Assembly: GCA_013696965.1 (NCBI GenBank) | Contig: JACCXN010000009.1 | Location: 62,001-126,000 of the forward strand | DNA from: Bacteroidota bacterium | Lineage (GTDB): Bacteria > Bacteroidota > Bacteroidia > JACCXN01 | Direction of reading: 5' to 3' | Length of the DNA stretch: 64,000 bases | Shown: in pieces, positions 6,108-28,701 of the stretch | Numbering within the stretch: the stretch's first letter is position 1 | Layout: every line of letters begins with the position of its first letter | Notes under the pieces: model-generated | The model's input: the letters and a program-made list of their open reading frames with translations, nothing else | Told to the model about the DNA's origin: nothing | Database searches by the model: none | Program-made: the position numbers and the translations under genes

Positions 6108-8384
6108 TTATTTTCTGATTCTTGACTGGGCATCCACTACAGCAATGGTTACCATATTTACAATTTCTCTAATTGAACTTCCGAGTTGAAGTATATGTAC
6201 GGGCTTTTTCATTCCGATCAAAATCGGCCCAATTGCTTCTGCTGCACCCAATTCCTGTATAAGTTTATAGGCTATATTTCCTGAAACAAGGTTTGGGAAT
6301 ATCAAAACATTTGCATTGCGATCAGCCAATTGTGAAAATGGAAATTGTTCATTGCGCAATTCTTTATTTAAAGCCATATTTGCCTGCATTTCCCCATCAA
6401 CAACAAGATCAGGATGGTTTTTATGTAAAAAGGAAACCGCTTCTCTTATTTTGCGTGTCTCATCACTTTCCGAGGAACCAAAATTGGAATATGAAAGCAT
6501 AGCAACATGAGGTTGAATACTAAGTTGTTTAACTGCTTCAGCTGTAAGTAAAGTTATATCAACCAGATCTTCAACAGTAGGATTCACATTTACTGTTGTA
6601 TCAGCAAAAAACAAAGGCCCAGACTTGGTAATCATTATATACATTCCTGCAACTCTTCTTACATCTGCCCTTTTACCAATAATTTGAAGAGCAGGCCTTA
6701 TTGTATCGGGATATTTTCTGGTTAGGCCAGAAATTAATGCATCTGCCTCACCCATTTCCACCATCATTGATCCAAAATAATTTCTTTCCTGCATTACTTT
6801 CCTGGCTTCATATAAAGTAAAACCACGTCTTTTCCTTTTATTAAAAAGAATATCTCCGAAAGTTTTTCTTCTCTCCTCCTCTTGCTTACTTCTAGGATCT
6901 ATGATTTGAATATGACCCAAATCCAAAGCGTTTTCCTTTATCAAATGTTTTATTTTTTCCTTATCTCCTAAAAGTATCGGAACGGCTATACCTTCATCTG
7001 AAACTATCTGGGCTGCTTTTAAAATTTTATAATTATCTGCTTCTGCAAAAACAACCCTTTGTGGATTTTGTTTGGCCTTGTTGGTTATATTCCTGATTAA
7101 TTTGTTGTCAAGGCCAAGTCGTTTTTTAAGTTCTTCATTATATGCTTCCCAATCAGTAATAATATTACGGGCAACACCTGATTTAATTGCAGCTTTGGCC
7201 ACTGCAGGAGCAACATTTGTAATAAGCCTTGGATCAAGTGGTTTTGGAATTATATAATCACTTCCGAACATAATGTTTTTTGAATCATAGGCAACATTTA
7301 CTATTTCAGGAACATTTTCTTTCGCAAGGGCTGCAATGGATTTTACTGCTGCCAGCTTCATTTCTTCATTTATACAGGTTGCCCTTACATCTAGTGCTCC
7401 CCGGAAAATATATGGAAAGCCAAGTACATTGTTTACCTGGTTAGGGTAATCAGATCTGCCAGTTGCCAAAATTATATCTTTTCTTGCTGCAATGGCATCT
7501 TTATATGCAATTTCAGGATCAGGATTGGCAAGAGCAAATACAATAGGTTTTTTAGCCATTGATTTAACCATGGCAACTGAAACAACATTACCTTTTGAAA
7601 GACCAAGAAAAACATCTGCATTTTTCATAGATTCCTCTAAAGTGTATATATTTCTAGAAGTAGCAAAATATTTTTTCTGTACATCCAAATCTGCAATATC
7701 CTTTCGTATCACACCTTTGCTATCACACATTACCAGGTTATCCAATTTTGCACCCATTGCAATATATAGTTTTGCACAAGATATGGCAGAAGCCCCAGCA
7801 CCATTTACTACTATTTTAACTTTTTCAATTTTTTTCCCAGCAATTTCAAGTGCATTTAACAGGGCTGCCGATGTTATAATAGCAGTGCCATGCTGATCAT
7901 CATGCATTATTGGAATATCAAGTTCCTCTTTTAATCTTCTTTCTATCTCAAAACATTCGGGAGCTTTAATATCTTCCAAATTAATTCCTCCAAAAGTAGG
8001 GGCTATTGCTTTTACCGTATTTACAAATAGATCAATATCCTTTGCATCTACTTCAATATCAAAAACATCTATGTCTGCAAAAATTTTAAACAACAATCCT
8101 TTTCCCTCCATAACGGGCTTTGAAGCCTCTGGGCCAATATCCCCCAGACCTAAAACTGCAGTTCCATTCGAAATTACTGCAACAAGGTTTCCCTTCGCAG
8201 TATATTTATATACGTCTTCTTTATTTTTTTCTATTTTAAGACAAGGTTCAGCTACCCCTGGGCTATAGGCCAATGAAAGATCCCGTTGTGAACTGTATGG
8301 TTTAGTGGGTACAACTTCAATTTTCCCAGGTCTACCCTGAGAATGATAATCTAATGCCTCTTGTTTTCTGATTTTAACTCCCAT
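6108..8384 (-). CDS. maeB: NADP-dependent malic enzyme with phosphotransacetylase-like domain
   Basis: This enzyme decarboxylates malate to pyruvate and CO2 with NADP, supplying NADPH and pyruvate. At 758 residues it has the long MaeB layout: a malic N-domain (about 1-160, with the conserved NGTAVLGLGD segment), an NAD(P)-binding domain (about 165-400, with GAGASAIS as the dinucleotide loop), and a phosphate acetyl/butyryltransferase-type domain (about 430-758). In MaeB proteins the third domain is known to act mainly in regulation by acetyl-CoA. The gene heads a maeB-ruvA(-sprA) run. A -7 element at 8405-8412 on the minus strand would place the transcript start about 15 bases before the ATG. 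Confidence 0.95.
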   Translation of the reverse strand: MGVKIRKQEALDYHSQGRPGKIEVVPTKPYSSQRDLSLAYSPGVAEPCLKIEKNKEDVYKYTAKGNLVAVISNGTAVLGLGDIGPEASKPVMEGKGLLFKIFADIDVFDIEVDAKDIDLFVNTVKAIAPTFGGINLEDIKAPECFEIERRLKEELDIPIMHDDQHGTAIITSAALLNALEIAGKKIEKVKIVVNGAGASAISCAKLYIAMGAKLDNLVMCDSKGVIRKDIADLDVQKKYFATSRNIYTLEESMKNADVFLGLSKGNVVSVAMVKSMAKKPIVFALANPDPEIAYKDAIAARKDIILATGRSDYPNQVNNVLGFPYIFRGALDVRATCINEEMKLAAVKSIAALAKENVPEIVNVAYDSKNIMFGSDYIIPKPLDPRLITNVAPAVAKAAIKSGVARNIITDWEAYNEELKKRLGLDNKLIRNITNKAKQNPQRVVFAEADNYKILKAAQIVSDEGIAVPILLGDKEKIKHLIKENALDLGHIQIIDPRSKQEEERRKTFGDILFNKRKRRGFTLYEARKVMQERNYFGSMMVEMGEADALISGLTRKYPDTIRPALQIIGKRADVRRVAGMYIMITKSGPLFFADTTVNVNPTVEDLVDITLLTAEAVKQLSIQPHVAMLSYSNFGSSESDETRKIREAVSFLHKNHPDLVVDGEMQANMALNKELRNEQFPFSQLADRNANVLIFPNLVSGNIAYKLIQELGAAEAIGPILIGMKKPVHILQLGSSIREIVNMVTIAVVDAQSRIRK

Positions 8385-23295: not shown

Positions 23296-24225
23296 ATGAA
23301 AAGAAAAATACTTTTATTAGCAATTCTATCTGCTGGATTTTATGTTAAATCAACAGCTCAAACCGGAGTAATTCCAAACGGGGGTTTAAATACCTGGACA
23401 AATTTCTTTTTCACCTATGATGAACCTAATGGTTGGGCAACTTCCAATCAATATAAAGCGCTTGACATTTCAAATCCTGTTACAGTTTTTAAAACCACGG
23501 ATAAATTTGAAGGAGGATTTGCCGCTAAAATAGAAACAAAACCAATGAATACTGCTCCCGCTGAGCAATTTGACACCCTTGGCTATCTGATTTGTGGAAG
23601 CGTTGATTTTTCAACGGCAGAAATAAAAGGTTTTCCTTATAGCGAGCGTCCCGATCGATTGGAATTTTATTATAAATATGCTCCTGTTTCTGAAGATGAA
23701 GGAGGGGTTTATGTTTCTTTAACCAAATGGGACAACACTACAGGAACAAGAATTACTGTGGCAGAGGGCGGAGCAGCCTTTACGGATAATGTTTCTCCTT
23801 ACATCCTTAATGAAGCAATATTAGGATACAACACTGATGATGTTCCTGATAGCGCCTCTATTATTTTCCTTTCAAGCAATTTTCTATTTGGCACTCCACA
23901 AGTTGGTTCAGTGTTATTTGTTGATAATGTTTCTTTCCAGGGACAAGCTACAGTTACTGGAATAAAAAATGCTCCAATAGAACAGATCCAGCAGCCTGTT
24001 GCTTATCCAAATCCCTCTTCAACAGAAATAAATTTTAGAGCATCCAAAAATGCAACCAGGATTACTACTGCACATTTTGGAGGCAGTACCCAGGCAACCA
24101 TTCATTTAGTAAATGGACAGGGCAAATTAGATACTTCTAATTTACCTGCAGGGATTTATTTTTACCAAATATTCATGGAGGATGAGCCAACGCCATTTCT
24201 TGGGAAATTTGTTGTTGTAAGATAA
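23296..24225 (+). CDS. Secreted protein with T9SS type A-like sorting domain
   Basis: A 309-residue exported protein. The signal peptide ends at KSTAQT (about residue 22). The body (about 23-215) opens with a PNGGLNTW phrase and ends in a SVLFVDNVSFQG strand, like the carbohydrate-binding jelly-roll (PCMD) proteins of Bacteroidota. The C-terminal part starts at VAYPNPSSTE and ends LPAGIYFYQIF...GKFVVVR, typical of T9SS cargo. The stretch between these two, where a D-x-x-G turn is expected, is unusual (RITTAHFGGSTQ), so the sorting domain has diverged or a small double frameshift has occurred. No specific substrate can be proposed. Confidence 0.8.
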   Translation: MKRKILLLAILSAGFYVKSTAQTGVIPNGGLNTWTNFFFTYDEPNGWATSNQYKALDISNPVTVFKTTDKFEGGFAAKIETKPMNTAPAEQFDTLGYLICGSVDFSTAEIKGFPYSERPDRLEFYYKYAPVSEDEGGVYVSLTKWDNTTGTRITVAEGGAAFTDNVSPYILNEAILGYNTDDVPDSASIIFLSSNFLFGTPQVGSVLFVDNVSFQGQATVTGIKNAPIEQIQQPVAYPNPSSTEINFRASKNATRITTAHFGGSTQATIHLVNGQGKLDTSNLPAGIYFYQIFMEDEPTPFLGKFVVVR

Positions 24226-24477: not shown

Positions 24478-24918
24478 ATGAAAAAAACTACATTAATTAT
24501 CACTTTGTTTTTTTGCAGTTTTGCATTTCATTCAAAAGCATCCACCAGTATGTTTGAACTTGATTATGATCTTGTCAGTTCAGAATTAGCTGATCTTTCC
24601 GAACTTGAAAATTACCTTTCTATAAATGGAATAGTTTCTTTGGGTGAATTATCACTTACTGATAACATAATATTAAAGAAGCTAAATATTTCAAAAGAAC
24701 TTTCAATGGTATCCCCTAATAACCTTCTCTTTAGAATTGAGGATATGGAATGGGGATCTTTCTTTTGGGGATTCTGTTGCTGGCCTATTGGTGTTTTCAC
24801 CGTCCTTTTGAATGATGACAAAGATAGCAATCACAAAATTTCCTACTTAATAGGATTAGGCACTGCTTTCATTGCTTATTCACCTACATTCTTTTTCCGT
24901 CCACAAGGATGGAGGTAA
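24478..24918 (+). CDS. Hypothetical membrane protein
   Basis: A 146-residue protein of unknown function. The ATG at 24478 begins a Met-Lys-Lys signal peptide ending near SKAST (about residue 22). Residues about 30-80 are acidic and Leu-rich. Then comes a hydrophobic hairpin: WGSFFWGFCCWPIGVFTVLL, an acidic loop DDKDSN, and a second membrane segment ISYLIGLGTAFIAYSP. The layout resembles the small Bacteroidota proteins with a WGxxxGxxGV...NDDK membrane hairpin often seen near yidD-like genes. A good terminator follows at 24945. I cannot assign a function. Confidence 0.7.
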   Translation: MKKTTLIITLFFCSFAFHSKASTSMFELDYDLVSSELADLSELENYLSINGIVSLGELSLTDNIILKKLNISKELSMVSPNNLLFRIEDMEWGSFFWGFCCWPIGVFTVLLNDDKDSNHKISYLIGLGTAFIAYSPTFFFRPQGWR

Positions 24919-24944: not shown

Positions 24945-24977
24945 GGGCCGGCATTTTATTGCCGGCTCTTTTTTTAA
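24945..24977 (+). terminator. Rho-independent terminator after the 24478-24918 gene
   Basis: GGGCCGGCA (24945-24953) pairs with 24960-24968 with one G-U pair and a 6-base loop, followed by a T-run. It also rules out a start of the next gene at 24943. Confidence 0.85.
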
Positions 24978-24999: not shown

Positions 25000-25686
25000 A
25001 TGCTTAATACAAGGCATCTTTTAATAATTCTTGGTCTTACACTTTTACACTTTACCCAGGCATTTTCTCAGCAGTTTTACCGGATTAAAGCAGATTTTAG
25101 TATTAAGGAAAACAAACCGGATGGACAATCCCAATTAATTATGGGCCAGGTTTATTACGACAAGATTTATAAAAAAATAATTTACGATATAACCTTTCCT
25201 GAAAAAGGTGTACTAATTGTAACTGATACAGTGATATACAGGATTGAGAACAATAAAGTAATAAGTAAAACTCCAACTGGCAATTTAAATGACTTTTCTG
25301 TTTTTCACCTATCCTTAAATGGCGATTTAATCAATTTTGGCCTTAACAATTCACCTTACACAATAGGAACCATTGAAAAAAAAGAAAATTTAGTGATTTC
25401 CACCTGGATTCCACCTAAAAAATATGCTCATTTATTAGGAAAAACAATAATTTCACAAAAAGACAAACGCCTTTTTGGGCTGGTCTTTTTCACGCCAACC
25501 GAAGAAATAATAGGCAAGCAATTTTTCAGAAAATACATTAATACAAATGGACTGGAATTCCCATCAGAATTGGTACAGGTAACCTATTTTGACAATAAAG
25601 AATTTTACAAGATTACCACTTTTAAAAACATTATAATTGATGAATTCAAAAATGAAAATTTATATAACTATAATCTTCCTGATTAG
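25000..25686 (+). CDS. LolA-like periplasmic protein
   Basis: A 228-residue exported protein. The ATG at 25000 is chosen because the upstream in-frame ATG (24943) lies in the terminator of the previous gene; from 25000 a clean signal peptide ends at QAFSQQ. The mature part is a run of beta strands (IKADFSIKENKPDG, GQVYYDKIYKKIIYDITFPEK, VIYRIENNKVISK) like the open-barrel fold of the lipoprotein carrier LolA and its relatives, with a DEFKNENLYNYNLPD ending. No key residue defines the activity. It overlaps the yidD-like gene by about 35 bases and so heads a four-gene overlapping cluster. Confidence 0.65.
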   Translation: MLNTRHLLIILGLTLLHFTQAFSQQFYRIKADFSIKENKPDGQSQLIMGQVYYDKIYKKIIYDITFPEKGVLIVTDTVIYRIENNKVISKTPTGNLNDFSVFHLSLNGDLINFGLNNSPYTIGTIEKKENLVISTWIPPKKYAHLLGKTIISQKDKRLFGLVFFTPTEEIIGKQFFRKYINTNGLEFPSELVQVTYFDNKEFYKITTFKNIIIDEFKNENLYNYNLPD

Positions 25687-26044
25687 TTTTGTCATTCCTT
25701 CAATGGTAATGGCACAGTCTACTTTTGAAATCTCAAAAATGAGAGAAGTATTGCATCCGCACACCAACAATATTGAATACAGCAGCGCCAAGAACAATAC
25801 AAATGAAGTAGAGTACATTTTTTCAGGGCTTTTTCTTTTTTACAAAGCTTTTATTTCTTCCCAGGACGGGCAGTCATGTTCTTTTACCCCTTCGTGTTCT
25901 GAATTTGGAATGCAGGCTGTAAAAAAACAAGGACCTATATTAGGTGTTATAAATACAATTGATCGTCTTACAAGGTGCAATGGCTTGAGTCCTGAAAAAT
26001 ATAACAGAGATGATAAATCAAAACTCTTACACGACCCTTTATAA
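25652..26044 (+). CDS. YidD-family protein with an N-terminal signal peptide
   Basis: YidD is normally an 80-90 residue protein on the inner face of the inner membrane that helps YidC insert proteins. Here the same domain (about residues 55-125) has FYKAFIS, CSFTPSCSEFGMQAVKKQG and the RCNG end, with Cys76, Cys82 and Cys109 at the family positions. Before it is an apparent cleavable signal peptide (about 1-22, ending VMAQS) and a 30-residue linker. I chose ATG 25652; TTG 25637 and ATG 25640 are also in frame. A periplasmic or outer-membrane-associated YidD would act differently from the known one. The stop overlaps the next ATG by one base. Confidence 0.88.
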   Translation: MKIYITIIFLISFVIPSMVMAQSTFEISKMREVLHPHTNNIEYSSAKNNTNEVEYIFSGLFLFYKAFISSQDGQSCSFTPSCSEFGMQAVKKQGPILGVINTIDRLTRCNGLSPEKYNRDDKSKLLHDPL

Positions 26045-26862
26045 TGTTTCTAAGAATTGTCTTTATTTGTATCCTTCTCTTATCAAACATAAGGGTAAAA
26101 TCTCAGGATTTATTTAACCTGGAAAATTCCACCCAGTTTGCTGATTTTTTAAAGAGAACCAGGCAATTTGAGCATGCAGCCAGGGAATATGAACGAATTG
26201 CCTTTCTTGATGTTCAGAACAATGATATAAGGCTTTCGCTTATCCAAGTGTATTTTCTTTCCGCAGACTATGCAGAGGCCTTAAAAAAAGCCTCGAAAAT
26301 ATATCAATTCAATCAAAACCTTCCTCGCCTTTTTGCAATGGAATATTCGCGTTTAATGTTACTTAATGATTCCATTGCCCAATTAAATTCTTTTGTAACA
26401 AACAACCCTAATTTACAAATTGAAGATAATAGAAAAATAATAATGTATTCTTATATGCTAAATGAAAATTGGCAGCAGGCTGAAAAGATCCTAAAACAAA
26501 TGCCAGAGGAATATTCCGAACACTCACTTGTGATAAAACAGGCTTTAAATCAAAAATACAAAAGCCCTTTGCTTGCCACAGGAATGTCTGCAATTATTCC
26601 TGGGGCAGGAAAAATATATACAAGAGATTGGAAAGACGGGTTATTTAGTTTCCTGGCTGTAGGATCATTGGCTTTTCAATCCTACAGAGGATTTTCAAAA
26701 TATGGTACACAAGCCGGCTCGGGATGGATTTATGGGGGAATTGGAACAGTGTTTTATGCAGGAAACATTTACGGAACTCACAAAGCTGCAAAAAGGTATA
26801 ATTCAAAATTAAAAGAAAGTGTTAAGGCAAAAACAAGGCATCTGCTTATTACTGGTTTTTAA
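26044..26862 (+). CDS. Exported TPR protein with TM2/DUF5683-like C-terminal tail
   Basis: A 272-residue protein. The signal peptide ends at RVKSQD (about residue 21). Helical TPR-like repeats (about 30-170; AAREYERIAFLDVQNND, AEALKKASKIYQFNQNLP, WQQAEKILKQMPEEYSE) are followed by IIPGAGKIYTRDWKDG and two or three hydrophobic segments to about residue 255. This proline-glycine entry to a membrane hairpin is typical of TM2 and DUF5683-type domains. Its neighbour at 26819 has the same layout, so they are diverged paralogues. Start is the ATG that overlaps the yidD-like stop. Function unknown. Confidence 0.78.
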   Translation: MFLRIVFICILLLSNIRVKSQDLFNLENSTQFADFLKRTRQFEHAAREYERIAFLDVQNNDIRLSLIQVYFLSADYAEALKKASKIYQFNQNLPRLFAMEYSRLMLLNDSIAQLNSFVTNNPNLQIEDNRKIIMYSYMLNENWQQAEKILKQMPEEYSEHSLVIKQALNQKYKSPLLATGMSAIIPGAGKIYTRDWKDGLFSFLAVGSLAFQSYRGFSKYGTQAGSGWIYGGIGTVFYAGNIYGTHKAAKRYNSKLKESVKAKTRHLLITGF

Positions 26863-27673
26863 AATTGCTTTTGTTTTAAATTTATCCGCTCAGGATATTG
26901 AACAAACTCTTGCGCTTGCAAACCAGCAATACGAAAAAGCTCAGTATACTCAAGCAATAAGTTATTATCAAAGAATACTATTTTTTGATAAAAAAAACTA
27001 CAATTCACAAATCCACCATCGACTTGCAAATTGTTTTTTCAATACAGGAAATTACGAGAAGGCTGCCGAAAGCTACGATATTGCTTGGTATTCCGAGGAA
27101 AACGACAGCATAAAAACCGAATTGGTTTTTAAGAAAACATCAAGCCTGCTGCTTCAAAATAAATTTCAATTTGCGCTAATTGAAATATTAAACCTTAAGG
27201 ATGATCTATCCATAGATTTTCAAAAACGAAAGGAATTTTATTCGGGAATAATCTATTTTGGATTGGAAGATTTTGTACGTTCTGAATCTCATTTCAAATT
27301 AGTTTTTTCAGAAAAAGTTTTTGTTAACGAACTTGAAAAACTATTTAAAAAGAATCAAAAAATTGAAAAATTAAATCCTAAAACCGCGCGAATATTAAGC
27401 ATGGTAATTCCGGGTTTAGGGCAATTTTATTCAGGAGATATAAAAAACGGAATTAATTCTTTGTTATTAACCGGATTATTCGCCTATTTATATGTAAATA
27501 CCGCTATAAATTTTAGTTTTCTGGAAGGTTACTTAATTGTTTTCCCTTGGTTTCATAGATACTATACTGGCGGATATAAAAGAGCTGGTATAAATACTGA
27601 AAAAATAAAATCAAACAAACGTGCTGTAATTTATCAGGAAATTATTACCCTTATTGAAAAATCAAATAGTTAA
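26819..27673 (+). CDS. Exported TPR protein with TM2/DUF5683-like tail (paralogue)
   Basis: A 284-residue product read from a GTG inside the previous gene (44-base overlap); from it a signal peptide ends at NLSAQD (about residue 25). TPR-like helices follow (LALANQQYEKAQYTQAISYYQRI, HRLANCFFNTGNYEKAAESYDIAW). From about residue 193 VIPGLGQFYSGDIKNG leads into hydrophobic segments and ends with YKRAGINTEK. Layout and the PG-x-G-x-x-Y motif mirror the upstream gene. It closes the LolA-like/YidD/TPR/TPR cluster. GTG start is inferred because no ATG gives a signal peptide. Confidence 0.76.
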   Translation: MLRQKQGICLLLVFKIAFVLNLSAQDIEQTLALANQQYEKAQYTQAISYYQRILFFDKKNYNSQIHHRLANCFFNTGNYEKAAESYDIAWYSEENDSIKTELVFKKTSSLLLQNKFQFALIEILNLKDDLSIDFQKRKEFYSGIIYFGLEDFVRSESHFKLVFSEKVFVNELEKLFKKNQKIEKLNPKTARILSMVIPGLGQFYSGDIKNGINSLLLTGLFAYLYVNTAINFSFLEGYLIVFPWFHRYYTGGYKRAGINTEKIKSNKRAVIYQEIITLIEKSNS

Positions 27674-27831: not shown

Positions 27832-28701
27832 ATGAAAAACATTTCCAAATTTTCTGCTATATTTATTGTAGTAGTTATTCTGGTGTCCTTTTCTTTTAAA
27901 AACAAAAAGGACACTTATAAAATATACGATTCAAAAGGAAAGGAAGTATCTTATTCTGATGTTTTACTTGCCTCCCAAAAAGCTGAAATAATATTGTTTG
28001 GGGAGCTTCATAACAACCCTGTTATTCATTGGATGCAGCTTGAATTGACAAAAGATTTATATCAGAAAAAACCAAATTTAATAATGGGGGCTGAAATGCT
28101 TGAAGCGGATAATCAAATATTACTTAATGAATATCTGACAGGAAAAATAACCGAAAAAAATTTCAAGGCTGAAGCTAAATTATGGACAAATCACAATACA
28201 GATTATCAGCCATTAGTGAATTTTGCAAAAGAAAATAAATTGTCTTTTATAGCCACAAATGTTCCAAGACGATATGCCAGTATGGTATACAGTAAAGGAA
28301 TTGACGAACTTCAAAGTTTAAGCAATGATGCAAAACAATGGATTGCCCCTCTACCAATGAAGTATGATTCCACATTAAAGGGTTACAGTGAAATCATTAA
28401 GGCTGCCGGTGGCCATGGTGGTGAGAATTTGCCTAAATCTCAAGCATTAAAAGATGCTACCATGTCCCATTTTATTTTAAAAAACTACAAGCCTGCATAT
28501 ACATTTATTCATTACCATGGATCATACCATTCAAATAATTTCGAAGGTATTTATTGGTATTTAAAACAAGAAAAAACTAAACTTAACATTTTAACAATTG
28601 CTTCTGTTGAACAACTAAACATTGATTCACTTTCCCAAGAATATTTAAATATGGCTGATTATATTTTTGTAATCCCGGAAAACATGACAAAAACGCATTG
28701 A
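27832..28701 (+). CDS. ChaN/haem-binding-type uptake protein
   Basis: A 289-residue exported protein of the ChaN family, known in Campylobacter as an iron-regulated haem-binding lipoprotein. The family core is seen: ILFGELHNNPVIHWMQ (about 50-65), GAEMLEADNQ, a central AGGHGGE region, and HYHGSYHSNNFEGI near residue 236. Conserved Glu and His of GELH and HYHG are present. Unlike ChaN it has no lipobox Cys: the N-terminus is a plain signal anchor or signal peptide (about 1-23). The stop overlaps the start of tag, so the two are translated together. Iron-related role is inferred from the family. Confidence 0.82.
   Translation: MKNISKFSAIFIVVVILVSFSFKNKKDTYKIYDSKGKEVSYSDVLLASQKAEIILFGELHNNPVIHWMQLELTKDLYQKKPNLIMGAEMLEADNQILLNEYLTGKITEKNFKAEAKLWTNHNTDYQPLVNFAKENKLSFIATNVPRRYASMVYSKGIDELQSLSNDAKQWIAPLPMKYDSTLKGYSEIIKAAGGHGGENLPKSQALKDATMSHFILKNYKPAYTFIHYHGSYHSNNFEGIYWYLKQEKTKLNILTIASVEQLNIDSLSQEYLNMADYIFVIPENMTKTH

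Follow-up and report, generated by a model that had tools for sequence, protein, structure and literature searches.

Gene organization of the cluster

The window analyzed here is a 64,000-nucleotide (nt) stretch of DNA from a Bacteroidota bacterium with a 3.86-Mb assembly in 106 contigs. An earlier note had described four overlapping or abutting genes, and their coordinates proved exact. The set was incomplete: a fifth gene located upstream belongs to it, and a terminator-like hairpin had also been overlooked. The features, in window positions, are:

24478..24918, + strand: UP (fifth gene), 146-aa exported hairpin protein upstream of ORF1
24945..24976, + strand: intrinsic-terminator-like hairpin between UP and ORF1
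25000..25686, + strand: ORF1, exported LolA/LolB-fold protein, 228 aa
25652..26044, + strand: YidD2 (exported YidD), 130 aa, with the YidD domain at about 25817-26005
26044..26862, + strand: TPR1, exported TPR protein with a C-terminal PGxGKxY...FYxGNIYG hairpin at about 26575-26784
26819..27673, + strand: TPR2, exported TPR protein with a PGxGQxYxG...RFYxGN hairpin at about 27380-27577

ORF1 and YidD2 overlap by 35 nt and YidD2 and TPR1 by 1 nt (TAATG), while TPR2 starts with GTG and shares 44 nt with TPR1. Signal peptides had been proposed for all four proteins, and each indeed has a hydrophobic N-terminal core followed, where cleavage is likely, by Q (AFS^QQ in ORF1, VMA^QS in YidD2, VKS^QD in TPR1, and LSA^QD in TPR2). 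All four signal peptides (Sec/SPI) fit the Q-rule of Bacteroidetes (PMC5837995, PMC10653852), and Q-rule export signals were found in nearly all homologues of the module proteins. Upstream of the cluster lies a gene for a PCMD-domain protein with a type IX secretion system (T9SS) C-terminal sorting domain (23296-24225, +). Downstream, a ChaN/Tiki-type haem-binding protein is encoded (27832-28701, +), which was not seen at this place in the relatives read.

A divergent YidD with a predicted export signal

YidD is among the most widespread small proteins of bacteria, and its role is poorly understood. YidD2 matched Pfam PF01809 with 64.3 bits (cut-off 27) and TIGR00278 with 58.9 bits (cut-off 40). 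Judged by these profile matches, the second gene of the cluster is a real but divergent YidD. With canonical YidD (PF01809/TIGR00278, membrane protein insertion efficiency factor) it shares the overall domain, the CX5C core, and the preceding hydrophobic/amphipathic helix with the YxxFIS motif, which is kept in the exported YidDs. It differs by its signal peptide and linker, its gene neighbors, its separate branch in the tree, and the lack of the C[HN]P...GxDPVP tail; of the sequences sampled, nearly every canonical one from the phylum has a tail of this kind and no exported one does. The split between exported and canonical YidD fell on one branch with support 100/99, in a tree built from only 76 columns with 8 canonical rows.

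The YidD2 gene is not located beside rnpA or yidC but sits among ORF1, TPR1, and TPR2. The other yidD gene of the genome, for which a check beside rnpA had been proposed, is present: it is canonical (75 aa) and adjoins rnpA on another contig. A single yidD with an altered start or a misread signal peptide was thus rejected, since a canonical copy exists elsewhere and 29 aligned YidD2 homologues keep both the signal peptide and an invariant Q after it; this conservation speaks for export.

The YidD domain with preceding signal peptide and linker was confirmed as described earlier. The three family cysteines are present in YidD2 of the window and in types A and B (defined below), but the third is not invariant: all aligned type-C homologues have Asp in its place, which leaves only the CX5C pair as common to all. 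Together with the missing canonical tail, this means that the biochemical function of exported YidD may differ from that of canonical YidD. The predicted model of YidD2 is mainly helical, at moderate confidence (pLDDT 79). None of the chains with which it was compared exceeded Z 2.7, a result that does not in itself show a new fold, and no solved structure for YidD was matched by sequence.

Paralogous TPR proteins with a conserved hairpin

TPR1 and TPR2 are paralogous from end to end (hhalign 99.9%, E 8e-36). TPR2 matched TPR_2 with 32.5 bits (cut-off 27); matches of TPR1 to the Pfam families TPR, DUF5683, and TM2 were all below threshold. A conserved PGxGxxYxG...FYxGN hairpin is present in both proteins (alignments A7 and A6). 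The paralogy and the PGxGxxY motif of the pair, both proposed earlier, thus stand. The membrane nature of the hairpin fared less well: its hydrophobicity is modest in the TPR proteins and weak in TPR1.

The PGxGxxYxG motif is loosely shared with the hairpin proteins of the DUF5683 and TM2 families. Weak matches to Pfam DUF5683 were obtained for 14 of the 30 TPR1 members and 18 of the 29 TPR2 members; for the two window proteins, they scored 19.5 and 13.6 bits (cut-off 26.7) and covered only the first ~25 positions. In contrast to DUF5683 and TM2 proteins, the TPR proteins have a TPR domain in front, and their second motif, FYxGN, lies outside the short matched stretch. Leptospira LB_137 was considered as a TPR2 relative but not retained, the match being to one member (E 7e-5).

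Exported YidD and TPR1 co-occur in Bacteroidota

Among 40 relatives, exported YidD scored above 107 bits in exactly 12, and no other YidD exceeded 66 bits. The genomes in which TPR1 scored above 197 bits were these 12 and no others; in the remaining 28, its best score was 45 bits. Since some of these genomes also went into the profiles, what is informative here is the absence elsewhere, together with a test on 296 genomes of the phylum. There, TPR1 was detected in 32 genomes, of which 12 had made no contribution to the profiles; 28 of the 32 also matched the YidD profile. The remaining four also have an exported YidD, adjacent in G045, G047, and G263 and fused in G144. Exported YidD therefore stands beside TPR1 in all 32 TPR1 genomes, once as a natural YidD-TPR1 fusion in one 400-aa ORF (L103, 7599-8801, +). 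On the basis of this co-occurrence in both samples, chance neighborhood was rejected. A gene for a PEGA-like lipoprotein lies just upstream of the fusion.

A search for the gene order in other Bacteroidota had been proposed, and the genes proved to be neighbors in relatives across many families. YidD, TPR1, and TPR2 follow each other in this order and in most cases overlap, and the module was found in 16/16 sampled genomes of family f49. Only one TPR protein was seen in G045, G263, and G144. In terms of gene content, exported YidD and the paralogous TPR-hairpin proteins are a conserved module. Strict co-occurrence, conserved order, and the natural fusion also lend support to the complex postulated in the earlier note, and it is likely that these proteins associate physically.

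Three types were distinguished by the YidD core: SSQDxxxCxFxPSCS in type A, to which the window belongs, SxQxxAxCxYEISCS in type B, and DGDNCPFxPSCS...RFTRD in type C. Type-C modules (L089-L102, L104) have a wider common synteny, with what we take to be an acyl-CoA dehydrogenase upstream and, presumably, a ~142-aa ACT-like and a 453-aa DUF711-like protein downstream. Genes for an exosortase X-like protein, an associated membrane protein, and a PID-CTERM protein adjoin one type-B module (L045, 1466-2736, +).

Could the module be an accessory of a type IX secretion or exosortase system? The genome has a T9SS (SprA at C9:60115-67101), exosortase X and a PID-CTERM protein are encoded beside the module in L045, and 13 TPR2 members are similar to PorW/SprE. 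SprA presence does not discriminate, since it was found in 26 of the 28 relatives lacking the module and in 38/40 overall, compared with 12/40 for the module. The exosortase neighbor was seen at one locus only, and the resemblance to PorW consists of TPR repeats, which are common to many families. The T9SS link is thus unsupported, and we regard an accessory role of either kind as very improbable.

ORF1 is LolA-like by fold

The MMPL-family exporters are typical partners of PF17131 proteins. Genes for such exporters were seen near the module at L040 (3-2069, +) and L049 (3402-5732, -) only, and a constant MMPL partner was therefore rejected.

ORF1 had no match in Pfam or NCBIfam, including the LolA families PF03548 and TIGR00547, and its relatives remained below threshold against these two. 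Its predicted model (pLDDT 86) shows an unclosed beta-barrel of the LolA/LolB fold. The best Foldseek match was 3buu (E 1.8e-10), and VIA Z scores were 15.5 for a DUF1329 protein, 14.9 for LolA3 of Porphyromonas gingivalis, and 14.5 for LolB; LolA3 and LolB superimposed at 3.5-3.6 Å over 183-191 residues (VIA). The earlier assignment of a LolA-like flanking protein was thus borne out by the model, and ORF1 is LolA-like by predicted fold only. Genes at the same place in type-B, f44, and f57 loci encode ORF1 homologues (hhalign 99.5%), while no LolA-like gene adjoins the module in the type-C loci sampled. With LolA, LolA3, and LolB of Bacteroidota (PMC11885536, PMC13103446), ORF1 has the fold and the export signal in common. 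It differs from them in that it has no sequence-family match, its cluster has no LolB lipoprotein partner, and it shares an operon with YidD2 and the TPR proteins.

The fold raises the question of whether the cluster is a branch of lipoprotein or lipid trafficking, in which ORF1 would serve as a LolA-type carrier in soluble form, with an inner-membrane platform, made up of YidD2 and the TPR proteins, for docking or release. The closest folds (DUF1329, LolA3, and LolB), the matching position of a LolA-like gene in types A and B, f57, and f44, and the MMPL exporters beside two loci are consistent with such a role. It is harder to reconcile with type C, the f49 type, which lacks a LolA-like gene beside the module, with the restriction of MMPL genes to two loci, and with UP and most module members, which resemble SPI substrates rather than lipoproteins. 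We consider trafficking of this kind somewhat unlikely. The role in outer-membrane lipoprotein or barrel handling offered in the earlier note gained no direct support, given that ORF1 is LolA-like in fold alone and type C has no LolA neighbor.

UP and the terminator-like hairpin

UP consists of a signal peptide and a C-terminal two-helix hydrophobic hairpin (WGFCCWPIGVFTVLL...YLIGLG; alignment A8). Its family adjoins the module in most type-A loci, and of the 40 relatives, only the six that carry a type-A module have it. In two of these six (G019 and G037), neither of which contributed to the UP profile, UP is encoded in several copies on other contigs, unlinked to the module. Groups of UP-family genes away from the YidD module were read in L127 (6378-6851, about 6872-7267, and 7478-7729) and L128 (2-3103), from the two type-A genomes in which the module showed no adjacent UP. 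By hhalign, the UP hairpin showed no homology to the TPR hairpin. A relation to the TM2 protein of L087 was rejected, the similarity being weak and N-terminal only.

In 8/10 type-A loci, a terminator-like hairpin was detected downstream of the UP stop codon and ahead of the main part of the LolA-like gene (0.29 expected from shuffled sequences); some of these loci are close relatives and thus do not count as ten independent cases. Only 1 of the 29 intramodule junctions has such a hairpin. In four loci (L040, L042, L105, and L110), the hairpin lies inside the region coding for the LolA-like signal peptide; there, its T-tract encodes the residues just after the cleavage-site Q. A terminator-like hairpin at this position points to production of UP in excess of the module proteins, as would be expected if UP were a client or product and not a constant subunit.

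Alternatively, the YidD fold may have been reused as a disulfide-stabilized (CX5C) periplasmic adaptor of a structural or maturation complex that has no role in membrane insertion; UP would then be a secreted or envelope peptide matured by it. The invariant CX5C pair would fit this possibility, as would the missing canonical tail, the replacement of the third cysteine in type C, the multiple UP copies in some genomes, and the terminator-like hairpin that follows UP. Against it speak the retention of the canonical hydrophobic helix before CX5C with YxxFIS and the membrane-type hairpins of the partners. On balance, a reused fold seems to us on the unlikely side.

A putative periplasm-facing complex for membrane protein assembly

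Two papers, both citing Yu et al. 2011, place canonical YidD near SecYEG and YidC and regard it as a putative insertion factor (PMC8082313, PMC10502375). Our leading reading, which we hold tentatively, is a periplasm-facing envelope complex that aids the assembly of hydrophobic or membrane proteins, with UP as a candidate client in type A. YidD2 would be a small membrane-binding helper facing the periplasm, held by the two TPR proteins, which would be anchored via their C-terminal hairpins; in several lineages, a LolA-type carrier of hydrophobic molecules may join. Such a complex would help exported proteins that are hydrophobic or contain hairpins to enter the membrane, or to assemble in it, from the periplasmic side; canonical YidD is presumed to act in an analogous mode on the cytoplasmic face, as an aid to SecYEG/YidC. 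For type A, the most probable client would be UP, whose gene precedes the terminator and which would be produced in surplus. The LolA-like gene and UP lie outside the universal core of the module, since type C has no LolA neighbor and UP is known only from type A.

The mode proposed resembles that of the YidC/Oxa1 insertase with YidD, a small YidD helper acting at the site of membrane insertion. It differs in that the module would act from the periplasmic side and that the cluster contains no YidC-like gene. An argument against a helper is that SecYEG can insert hairpins located behind a signal peptide during export without help.

A bolder version of this periplasm-facing model, which we think unlikely, is a dedicated periplasm-side machine for the insertion of exported proteins with helical hairpins, UP among them, into either the inner or the outer membrane. 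It would be composed of the exported YidD and two hairpin-TPR scaffolds, with a LolA-type carrier in many lineages. We know of no bacterium in which such a machine provides a periplasm-side insertion route; if helical proteins were inserted from the periplasm, this would be a new one.

The papers searched, an incomplete collection of the literature, contained no description of an exported YidD or of this gene set. The parts belong to known families; their combination, location, and conservation appear new to us. A second, exported YidD with constant partners suggests an undescribed machine for membrane protein assembly at the outer side of the inner membrane, which automatic annotation masks under the name "membrane protein insertion efficiency factor YidD." An exported branch of YidD tied to constant partners, with one case of fusion to a partner, also offers a handle on the binding targets of the YidD domain. 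Yet another YidD, of a third kind, was encountered at L088 (7883-8239, -) and L063, as the second copy in one f40 genome. It is 118 aa long, has the tail CRPENGGIDQLN, and no signal peptide was seen in it.
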